Part shown: in pieces, positions 11,460-14,990 of the stretch
How the letters are laid out: the number at the start of each line of letters is the position of its first letter
Position numbering within the stretch: position 1 is the first letter of the stretch
DNA from: Elusimicrobia bacterium HGW-Elusimicrobia-2
Lineage (GTDB): Bacteria > CG03
Direction: 5' to 3'
Assembly: GCA_002841685.1 (NCBI GenBank)
Contig: PHAM01000043.1
Span: 1 to 15,581 of the forward strand
DNA length: 15,581 nucleotides
Translations under genes and position numbers: made by a program
The notes under the pieces: generated by a model
Databases searched by the model: none
What the model was told of the DNA's origin: nothing
The model's input: the letters and a program-made list of their open reading frames with translations, nothing else

Positions 11460-14400
11460 TCAGGCGTTGTGAGCGCGGCGGTAATTTGACTTGAAGTCTT
11501 TAACCGACAGTGGATAGGGACTCGCCGCGGAAAGCTCCTTGTCCGCCGAAACGGGCCAATCGCTGTAATAACCGAATTCCCCGGAGAGTTTGTCCGCGAA
11601 GAATTTGAGGAACTTGATGGCTTTGCTGTCATAAAGTTTATCAAATTCCGGAGGCAGGCCTTTGATGGCGGCCCGTTCAAAGGAAGCCATGTGTTTGAGC
11701 TCGCCTTTTTCGCCCGTCATGGTGCCGGCAATATCCGCGCAGCTGATAAGATTATCCCTGTTTGAAATGTTGACCACCTGTATTCTCTTCCAGTCCATAT
11801 AAATCAGATAATCCGCCTTGAGCGCCCTGACTTCCTCGCAGACAAGAGACATCGGAAGTTCAAAAGCGCCGCTTTTTCTGTCTATAAAAGGCGCCATCAG
11901 AGCCACGGCGTTAAAAGTTTTCGGATGCGCGGGATTGCCGTCTTTCGAGCGCAGAAAATTCATCCTGTATGCATGGGCCGCTATGGGAGGAAGATTTTGC
12001 CCGGCGCGGATATCGGGCTTCACGGCCCTGACGGAAGTAACCTTCCAATGAGAATCCCCCGCGTTTATGTATTCGGCTATCCTGTGCCCCAACTCCAGAA
12101 AATCGCTCCCCCTCAGCCATCTCAGGTCTTTAGGGATGCGCCGGTTCCTCTTGGGCGTGGCAATGGCTATGCCCTCAAGCCCGCCGTCCTCATCCCAGCC
12201 CACGAGCTGCGACAGGGCAGGGAGATCAAGTTTTTTCAGCGGATCGGCCCAATTGTAGAGCTCCATGCTGTACATGCCGCCCTGCAGAAAGAATATGTAC
12301 TCCGGTTTGTAATTGCGGCCCGACCATTCAAGGACCTGCGTTATGCCCGGCTTGTTTTCCGAGCCGTCCTTAGCCACATTCGGGGCCTTGGTGAGAATCG
12401 CCTTCATCGTTTTTCCGGTGGCGCTCTCCGTCAGGGTGTATTCTATGACATTGTACCGCACCTTCTCCAGCACCCTTTCATAACTGTCGTCGTACTTTTT
12501 AACGGCGACGGGCTTGACCGAAAGGAGTTCCAGCGAAGGCGCGTATTCGCAGACCTTGCCGGCGATGTAATAAAAAAATTCCAGTATATTCCTGTCGCCC
12601 ACTTTGAGGAGCCGCTTTTTCGGAAACTTCGGGTTTGAAAGAGGCTGGCAGGTCGCCGCGCCCTTGTGCCCGCCGTCGGCTTTTGTGCCTATGTGCTGCA
12701 TGAGCGTGCTCAGGTTTATCGTCTCATCCTCGTTATTGGGCTTCCTCGTGGTCATTATCTGGGAACCGTAGCAGTAGAAGAAATAATCGGCGTAATATTT
12801 TTTTTCATGGAGCAGATAATTTATGGCCGACGCCACATTTATCTTCGTCTCTCCGAGCTTCGCGTTTGTAAAAGGTGACAGCGCCGCCATTATCACCAGC
12901 CGGTTTTTCGGATTTTTGGCGTAGAGCTCCTTTATAAAAGCGTCCTTCTCCCCGGGGTCTTTGGGGGCCGAGAAGAAGATCCTCAGCTTATCCTTAAAGC
13001 CCAGGCTTTTCTCATAATCCGCGCCTTCGGGTTTTCTGATAAAGAGCATGTGCCCCATATTCGTTTCCGTGCGCGGGAGCACCTTCCTGAGGCCATCTTC
13101 ATATTCTTTTACGAACTTGTCCCAGCCCGTTGAGCTCATTATGTTTTCCAGAGACTCCCTGCTGTCCAGCTTTGACAGCTCCATGGTCATCTCTATTTTG
13201 TTGAAAGAAGAACCTATGAGCTTGGATATTTCTATTCCCAGGCCCCTGTCTTTCGGTCCCATGGATTCCGGCCAGAACTGGCGCGGAAGATAGAGGTCCT
13301 GAACATGAGCGATGTCTCTCAAATGCTTGAGGCCGGGATTATCCCAGCGCTGGTCTTTGACCATTTTCTCGTAGATGAGATCCGCTCCGCATTTCTTATC
13401 CTCGTCGGCTTCATCAACACCGCGGGGAGCGGCGTGTATATGGACTGAACCTATCACGCCCTCGACGGCGAGTTTTTCAAGCAGAGAGAGGACTTCGGGA
13501 TTATAGGGATGGTGGTCGTCTATGGAAACGACATTGACATCGTTTTCTTTGAGAAAACGGAACATCCTCTCAATGAGAGTGAGAGAAAGATTGTGGGCGA
13601 AAGGAGAGCTCCTGACACTGTCTATTTCGATCTCATCATCGGGTTCTGTGTCCTCATCTATTATATACTCCGGCGAGGCTGAAACGCAGGGCTTCTCATC
13701 CACCTCCTCGGGCACGAGCATAACATGCAGCCCGTCATATGTGACATTGAGCTGGAAAACCTCATCCTTCGACGCCGGGCGGTAGACCACGCGCGCCGAA
13801 CCGTCTTCGGCGGTTTTGATGATGGCGGACTTTGAGCCGAGCTCGTCGCCGGAAACGGAACAGATCTTTCCCTCGCCCCTGAGCCGTTCAAACATTATGT
13901 CAATGCCCGACACCGCCTTACCCGTGGAATCTTCCATGAGCATGACCGTGACGGGGAATCCGCTCTCCGCGGCGCAGGGGGTTTTATAAGACGGGAGCTC
14001 TTCAAGTATCTTTAAGGCGTCCTGTACTTTGTCGGCAAAAACGGCAAATTTATTTTTTAAGAGCACGTCCTGTTCTCCCGCACTCTTTATCCGCGAATCC
14101 ATAAAAACCAATATGTGTTTCAACTGTTCACGCACTTGTTCGGCGGCGACGGCAAAGTCTTTCGCGTGAGACTCATCAAAAGGCAGTTCGCGCAGCTGCT
14201 CATAGCCCCTCGCCAGATAACAGACGCTTTCAGCGGCGAGGATAATAAGTTCGTCGGTGTAGCCTATGCGGCCCCTTGAAGAGAGATCCAGCGAATTGGC
14301 TTTATCAAGCGCGAGGATATCTTCCTTTTTCTCAACGATCTCCGACATATCGTACTTGATCTCGTTGTTCATCGCCTCAAGAACCGTTTTTTTGGCCGCG

Positions 14401-14990
14401 TAAAATCTGTCGCCCGTAAAACAGGTCATCAGGTCACCGAGAAGAGCGTCCCGCTTTTCGCCGGAAGAGCCGTCTATTGAAAGCTCCGTGGCCGCCCTGG
14501 TCATATCCAGTATGTCGCCAGCCATCCGCAAGACCGGCACATCCTGATAGGCCGTTATTTTTGCCACCTGATTGAAGGTGGTATTAAAAACCTTTTTGTA
14601 TTCTTCGGAAACGGCAGTGGCGTTTGTCACGATCCACATCCTGAAATCGTTAAGATTTTTCGTGTATCTGTTTATGAGCCCGACGGCGTCGGTGTCCCTC
14701 ACCCGCACAAGTTTGAGGCGCGGCGCCAGGGCGTCAACCGGGAAATCAGGGATATAGACATCACAGCCCCGGTGCACGACGAGGTGGTTGACCCCTTCCG
14801 AATAATTTATGAAATCAAAATCATAGTCCTTACCCTGTTCGCTCTCGCGCAAGAGCTCTTCCTTCAGAGCGTTCTGAGCCCAGACGCTGTAGAAAACGTT
14901 TGCGCTTATAGTGTCAAGGTCGCCGCCGGTTTCCCGCCCTATCCCGTTGCAGACGCCTTTACCGTGGATGATGAATATCTTTTTTCTCAT
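11460..14990 (-). CDS. Giant DHH/DHHA1-family phosphoesterase-like protein with Ig-like insert, function unknown
   Basis: 1176 residues. DHH-family signatures can be seen in order: DTDAVG (99-104) after a beta-strand, like motif I DxDAxG; SIDDHHPY (489-496), the DHH motif; and a DHHA1-type end (about 732-780) with INLSTLMQHIGTKADGGHKGAA, whose GGHKGAA (773-779) matches the GGGH motif. Known members include NrnA nano-RNases, c-di-AMP phosphodiesterases and RecJ, which use Mn2+ at these residues and are mostly 320-600 residues long. Here about 385 residues separate motif I from DHH. They include a helical region (about 180-335), an Ig-like segment (about 344-427; TGKAVSGIDIMFE...TAEDGSARVVY) and an acidic stretch (444-458). 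About 395 unrecognised residues follow DHHA1. There is no signal peptide or membrane segment, so it is probably cytoplasmic, and no obvious Shine-Dalgarno. A fused hydrolase of another kind remains possible (the N-terminus IFIIHGKG is HGxG-like). Confidence 0.65.
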   Translation of the reverse strand: MRKKIFIIHGKGVCNGIGRETGGDLDTISANVFYSVWAQNALKEELLRESEQGKDYDFDFINYSEGVNHLVVHRGCDVYIPDFPVDALAPRLKLVRVRDTDAVGLINRYTKNLNDFRMWIVTNATAVSEEYKKVFNTTFNQVAKITAYQDVPVLRMAGDILDMTRAATELSIDGSSGEKRDALLGDLMTCFTGDRFYAAKKTVLEAMNNEIKYDMSEIVEKKEDILALDKANSLDLSSRGRIGYTDELIILAAESVCYLARGYEQLRELPFDESHAKDFAVAAEQVREQLKHILVFMDSRIKSAGEQDVLLKNKFAVFADKVQDALKILEELPSYKTPCAAESGFPVTVMLMEDSTGKAVSGIDIMFERLRGEGKICSVSGDELGSKSAIIKTAEDGSARVVYRPASKDEVFQLNVTYDGLHVMLVPEEVDEKPCVSASPEYIIDEDTEPDDEIEIDSVRSSPFAHNLSLTLIERMFRFLKENDVNVVSIDDHHPYNPEVLSLLEKLAVEGVIGSVHIHAAPRGVDEADEDKKCGADLIYEKMVKDQRWDNPGLKHLRDIAHVQDLYLPRQFWPESMGPKDRGLGIEISKLIGSSFNKIEMTMELSKLDSRESLENIMSSTGWDKFVKEYEDGLRKVLPRTETNMGHMLFIRKPEGADYEKSLGFKDKLRIFFSAPKDPGEKDAFIKELYAKNPKNRLVIMAALSPFTNAKLGETKINVASAINYLLHEKKYYADYFFYCYGSQIMTTRKPNNEDETINLSTLMQHIGTKADGGHKGAATCQPLSNPKFPKKRLLKVGDRNILEFFYYIAGKVCEYAPSLELLSVKPVAVKKYDDSYERVLEKVRYNVIEYTLTESATGKTMKAILTKAPNVAKDGSENKPGITQVLEWSGRNYKPEYIFFLQGGMYSMELYNWADPLKKLDLPALSQLVGWDEDGGLEGIAIATPKRNRRIPKDLRWLRGSDFLELGHRIAEYINAGDSHWKVTSVRAVKPDIRAGQNLPPIAAHAYRMNFLRSKDGNPAHPKTFNAVALMAPFIDRKSGAFELPMSLVCEEVRALKADYLIYMDWKRIQVVNISNRDNLISCADIAGTMTGEKGELKHMASFERAAIKGLPPEFDKLYDSKAIKFLKFFADKLSGEFGYYSDWPVSADKELSAASPYPLSVKDFKSNYRRAHNA

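Follow-up and report, generated by a model that had tools for sequence, protein, structure and literature searches.

The active site of NrnA is built from seven residues, H20, D24, D26, D80, H103, H104 and D156 (PMC9757072), and in RecJ the metal is held by residues that close strands 1 and 3 and by the DHH that closes strand 4 (PMC4846377). Two further precedents concern what has been added to such a core: NrnB needs the positively charged C-terminal extension that follows its DHHA1 domain for longer RNA, not for dinucleotides (PMC12709177), and the DHH domain of Cdc45 has a helical insertion that has been proposed to mediate replisome interactions (PMC4873980). The protein considered here, P0001 of Elusimicrobia bacterium HGW-Elusimicrobia-2, represents a genuine and divergent subfamily of DHH-DHHA1 proteins that has two uncommon architectural features, a split DHH domain and multiple DHHA1 copies, and a limited literature search produced no description of this layout.

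P0001 is encoded on the minus strand at positions 11460-14990 of the window, i.e., the whole stretch of 15,581 nucleotides that was analysed (contig PHAM01000043.1), in an ORF of 1176 codons that starts with ATG and is open throughout. Full-length copies were found in three genomes of the same genus at 98, 89 and 81% identity (Elusimicrobia bacterium CG03_land_8_20_14_0_80_50_18 has a relative at 89%), and two further genomes of the family have copies at 57 and 48% identity; a homologue is thus present in five of the six other genomes of the family and missing from one. Compared with the two less similar copies from the genus, the whole protein has dN/dS ratios of 0.08 and 0.11, and values of 0.05-0.19 in each segment indicate that all of them are constrained, the insert and the C-terminal copies included. 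This is thus a real gene, conserved and kept by purifying selection.

Its neighbours in the window, named from reading their sequences, appear to be household genes: a partial argB, two SurA/PpiC-type chaperone genes, pdxA, a GGDEF gene, rpsO, pnp, a biotin-carboxyl-carrier-like gene, spoVG, uppP and ftsK. The GGDEF protein, encoded four genes from P0001 (7313-8584, minus strand), retains an intact GGEEF, its N-terminal region resembles a nucleotide-binding one, and a link to c-di-GMP is possible. In another member of the family (G001) the P0001 homologue adjoins accB and the end of pnp, a weak hint of RNA turnover, and a comparison of the relatives' gene neighbourhoods across phyla revealed no constant partner that would name a substrate. 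Three other DHH proteins are encoded in the genome, of which one is canonical NrnA-like and one RecJ-like, so P0001 is not the sole candidate for such reactions.

The first-pass annotation, which had located the ORF and three motifs correctly, based its family assignment on those motifs, and two of them were well chosen. DDHHP (residues 491-495, window 13506-13520) is motif III and GGHKGAA (residues 773-779, window 12654-12674) is the DHHA1 motif, and the invariance of DHH and GGH across 16 relatives makes them more than chance occurrences. The third, DTDAVG (residues 99-104, window 14679-14696), had to be abandoned as a signature: it falls within the insert, a segment missing from compact members, and it varies within the family, the aligned stretch in same-family relatives reading DTDAVV, DDAAVG, DKDAVG, DKSSAV or DERLAP. 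The actual motif I comprises H9 and GGDLDT (residues 22-27, 14910-14927, minus strand; D24 and D26), and the counterparts of H9, D24 and D26 in the compact relative L027, H11, D28 and D30, are invariant. Motif II is PDFPVD (D82) and motif IV is Q564-D565. Invariant in the 16 sequences, in P0001 numbering, are H9-G10, D24, D26, D82, P84, D492-H493-H494-P495, Q564-D565, S589, I592-G593, R749, G773-G774-H775 and a handful of others. The four motifs of subfamily 1 of the DHH superfamily, I (DxD), II (D), III (DHH) and IV (D), are all present in order, and the GGGH-type motif of the C-terminal DHHA1 domain has its equivalent in the invariant GGH 773-775. Each of the seven active-site residues of NrnA has an invariant counterpart in the P0001 family in the same order (PMC9757072), and the RecJ metal ligands are likewise matched in order (PMC4846377). 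By homology, the predicted metal site consists of H9, D24, D26, D82, H493, H494 and D565, with GGH 773-775 of the DHHA1 domain predicted to face it; a site using Asp99 and Asp101, as had been suggested, does not hold, these residues being unconserved and inside the insertion.

P0001 escapes every Pfam and NCBIfam model, in line with the earlier remark that its layout is not known from a described family. The profile search with Pfam DHH and DHHA1 that had been proposed as a check gave no match: Pfam and NCBIfam searches detected no DHH domain in P0001 or in ten relatives, none of which reached the cut-off for PF01368/PF02272, and PF01368 matched three other proteins of the same genome, P0001 not among them. 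These misses are what speaks for a protein of another fold in which DHH and GGH had arisen by chance. The missed cut-off reflects the reach of the model and not a feature that defines the superfamily, and the fold itself argues against chance. L027, a compact relative of 388 aa that is 36% identical to P0001, was modelled from an alignment of 16 diverse rows with a pLDDT of 93.0 and a pTM of 0.88. In this model strand 5-11 ends in H11, helix 29-45 starts at D28/D30, strand 70-75 is followed by D76 and strand 98-104 ends in the DHH, an order that agrees with that of the NrnA and RecJ active sites. All 50 of the 50 PDB matches listed by VIA-align 2 were DHH-superfamily proteins (Z 11.9-19.2, differences under 1 counting as ties), led by the DHH domain of PF0399 (Z 19.2, 321 residues, 3.9 A), with the RecJ proteins of D. 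radiodurans (18.7) and P. furiosus (17.7), PAP phosphatase (17.7), Cdc45 (16), CnpB/NrnA (about 15) and GAN also among the matches listed. Foldseek likewise returned DHH proteins, among them RecJ, the NrnB-like 6mtz, GAN and PggH, at E 5e-8 to 1e-5, 6mtz being the best (5e-8) and RecJ scoring 8e-8.

A control with 60 column shuffles pointed in the same direction. The core profile of the P0001 family scored 34.4 against an NrnA profile made from DHH proteins of neighbouring genomes, a score that none of the 60 shuffles reached (maximum 21.6), and 28.5 against a second DHH family, again with 0 of 60; against RecJ alone it was not above shuffles (5/60). The full-length profile alignment to NrnA superposes motif I, DHH and GGH, and the distant relative L073 has FGGGGHRGAGS with a sub-threshold Pfam DHHA1 match (E 0.011) at the expected place. 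For the compact relative, chance motifs are refuted as far as a predicted structure allows, and for P0001 we give them practically no credence. The DHH-DHHA1 fold is seen in L027 and not in P0001 directly, where AlphaFold2 with six close homologues yielded a pLDDT of 48.7 and a pTM of 0.35; with a direct model this poor, it is from L027 that the residues on either side of the insert are predicted to converge on one site. A PDB search with the direct model retrieved helical bundles only (Z 8.8 or less) and was discarded, and PDB sequence searches gave chance matches only. Taken from the fold matches of L027, the profile scores above shuffles and the invariant motifs, the DHH-DHHA1 fold and family of P0001, and with them the link to the phosphoesterase family first proposed from the motifs, are near certain.

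Whether such a fold is still an enzyme is a separate matter, since Cdc45, which was matched at Z 16 and whose DHH domain likewise carries a helical insertion (PMC4873980), offers the precedent of a non-catalytic scaffold, and P0001 might be a dead DHH fold like Cdc45 or the partners of GAN. Unlike inactivated DHH proteins, however, the P0001 family has every metal-ligand position invariant in 16 relatives from five lineages, and we consider a scaffold very improbable. As all the metal-ligand equivalents are retained, comparison with homologues points first to an active two-metal phosphodiesterase; P0001 is probably such an enzyme, and the metal, by the same analogy, is probably Mn2+.

The DHH core is indeed split by a large insertion, as had been inferred, although the break lies between motifs II and III and not between I and III. 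The first part of the DHH domain, at the N-terminus (residues 1-92, 14715..14990, minus strand, as are all the following segments of P0001), shows little or no variation in 16 relatives, the distant L073 among them, is in keeping with the secondary-structure order of L027, and holds beta1 with the invariant His9, GGDLDT and the motif II segment YIPDFPVD (D82, D86). The insertion of about 380 residues (87-465, 13596..14732), which is missing from the compact L026 and L027 and from L015-L017, sits between motif II and the helix leading to motif III. It includes an all-helical domain (about 93-340, 13971..14714) conserved in 10 long-form relatives, residues 100-335 or so being helical in the direct model with a pLDDT mostly of 60-89. 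Two matches to this domain, both far below cut-off, were set aside: NCBIfam replication factor A (E 0.007, residues 96-242) and Pfam Serine_rich (E 0.25). The strands of the model in the next segment (about 341-432, 13695..13970), together with sub-threshold Pfam matches to several Ig-like families, such as Filamin (E 0.011) and Big_1 (E 0.24) in P0001 and to Big_1 in the relative L010 (E 0.0055), suggest a probable Ig-like beta-sandwich. The C-terminal part of the DHH domain and its linker helices (466-654, 13029..13595), delimited by the alignment and the fold of the compact relative, contain motif III, C534-G535, motif IV and SKLIG.

The long extension that had been noticed after the core is made of two more DHHA1-like copies, three in total. 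Copy 1 (655-832, 12495..13028), with R749 and GGH 773-775, is identified by its invariant residues and by a fold match that spans the domain. Copy 2 (836-992, 12015..12485) has GGL in place of GGH, aligns to copy 1 by hhalign at E 5e-25 and follows the helix and strand order of DHHA1 in the models of P0001 (direct) and L027; the GGH is retained in L011, and its His has been lost in all other members. Copy 3 (993-1160, 11511..12014) is degenerate, is recognised by hhalign (E 3e-6 against copy 1, 2e-5 against copy 2) and by its element order in the model, and is restricted to part of the protein's own family. These are single-pair E-values that serve for contrast only, unrelated control segments giving 0.03 or worse. 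With pI values of 9.3 and 9.0, copies 1 and 2 are basic, the remaining parts of P0001 being acidic; copy 2 is basic in 9 of 10 members, and copy 1 is not basic in the f24 and most of the f35 long forms.

A profile search of 386 genomes, a homologue search having been another of the proposed checks, found relatives of P0001 in 14, six of its own family (its own genome included) and eight that fall, judging from the size of the phylum searches, into four further phyla, each sampled by two or three species, so that the relatives span five thinly sampled lineages. Among viral contigs, phages and plasmids none were found. Long forms that share the insert occur in f24 (about 990 aa) and f35 (about 950 aa), and in f35 they coexist in the same genomes with compact forms of 388-393 aa, L026 and L027, that have no insert. 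A third form, L015-L017 (619-704 aa), is interrupted between the first strand (IIHG) and GGDLDT by some 170-200 residues, and the distant compact L073 is a fourth. The tree, with a support of 49/55, favours neither a single nor a repeated origin of the shared insert. Several observations were made in passing. L015:1471-3582 (minus) and L016:1435-3531 (minus) begin with an N-terminal GYF_2 domain, and their insertion site differs from that of P0001. The G001 copy (L005 / L105:2050-4962, minus) stops after DHHA1 copy 2 and continues into unrelated sequence, which may reflect a truncation that occurred in nature or an error of assembly. Directly downstream of the long-form relative of G191 lies a PD-(D/E)XK nuclease-like gene (L095:8903-10636, plus), and compact relatives of the same lineage adjoin a DinG-like helicase (L098, L099), both names coming from the protein sequences only. 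Finally, a RecJ-like protein (L061:1-1932, minus) carries, between its DHH and DHHA1 matches, a 3'-5' exonuclease of the DnaQ type (residues 158-310, Pfam RNase_T at E 4e-28), as do L057, L059, L060 and P0001's own genome (G000:C60, around 19084-19449); it may combine 5' and 3' exonucleases in one chain, which would be unusual.

The substrate of P0001 would most likely be short RNA or single-stranded nucleic acid ends. A small nucleotide (pAp, c-di-AMP/pApA or pGpG), with extra domains that oligomerise or regulate and bind no polymer, would suit the presence of PAP phosphatase (Z 17.7), CnpB Rv2837c with pApA, the T. maritima PDE with pApA, DhhP and PggH among the matches listed for L027, as well as the GGDEF gene in the window. 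The top Z-scores, however, with differences under 1 read as ties, belong to polymer-acting or RecJ-type enzymes, the extra DHHA1 copies and their basic charge better fit a longer substrate, and the genome already has its canonical NrnA-like protein, all of which leads us to regard a small-nucleotide enzyme as unlikely, if worth keeping in mind. For a nucleic-acid phosphodiesterase, the scissile phosphate would lie between the DHH metal site and DHHA1 copy 1 (R749, GGH), the basic copies 2 and 3 would enlarge the surface on which a longer or particular nucleic-acid end binds, in the manner of the C-terminal extension of NrnB-A (PMC12709177), and the helical and Ig-like insert would lie alongside the active-site cleft and act as a partner-docking or gating module, modelled on the helical insertion of Cdc45 (PMC4873980). 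These roles of the insert and of the extra copies are proposed by analogy. As a whole, a catalytically competent two-metal DHH-DHHA1 phosphodiesterase of the NrnA/NrnB/RecJ kind, with its extra domains acting as proposed, is the reading we favour with somewhat better than even confidence. A bolder scheme—in which the conserved DHH core took up insertions at two different sites, after motif II or between H9 and motif I, in independent events, DHHA1 was multiplied into a substrate-holding track, and activity is gated by the binding partner of the insert—is speculative and, in our estimation, rather doubtful.

The P0001 family is a divergent and so far unnamed branch of a superfamily that serves RNA turnover, DNA repair and second-messenger breakdown, and it occurs in lineages known solely from metagenomes. 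Its compact members and two alternative insertion sites form a natural series on how DHH enzymes come to prefer substrates of a given length and to be regulated, and the tandem copies offer a direct test of whether DHHA1 is a length-determining module, as the NrnB extension suggests.

Set beside the described systems, P0001 resembles each in part. Like NrnA, CnpB and PAP phosphatase (COG0618), it has DHH followed by DHHA1, the seven active-site residues, a GGH and, for NrnA, a profile similarity above shuffles; however, NrnA is an uninterrupted protein of about 330 aa, in which motif I (xPDGDA) comes directly after the His (4 residues) and a single DHHA1 has GGGHxxASG, whereas the core of P0001 is interrupted, GGDLDT comes after 15 residues, and DGGHKGAAT is accompanied by two more copies. 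P0001 is thus not a stand-alone, uninterrupted protein with GGGHxxASG and RxRxR, and keeps only R749. With RecJ, the archaeal GAN and RecJ2, and PF0399 (COG1107), the family shares the fold (Z 17-19), the long linker helix and DHHA1, but its motif I reads DLDT and not DxDxD, and the region after DHHA1 is DHHA1-like and not an OB fold, Pfam RecJ_OB giving no match in P0001. Cdc45 is regarded as a replisome co-activator; its insertion, at 80 residues, has no Ig-like part, and it is without extra DHHA1 copies. NrnB (COG2404), which the best Foldseek match, 6mtz from H. pylori (of the same phylum as clade NrnB-B), resembles, shares with P0001 the DHH-DHHA1 order and a C-terminal extension beyond DHHA1; an insertion between motifs II and III, as in P0001, is not described for it, and where the extension of NrnB-A has about 110 residues (PMC12709177), that of P0001 has about 340, made up of DHHA1-like copies.
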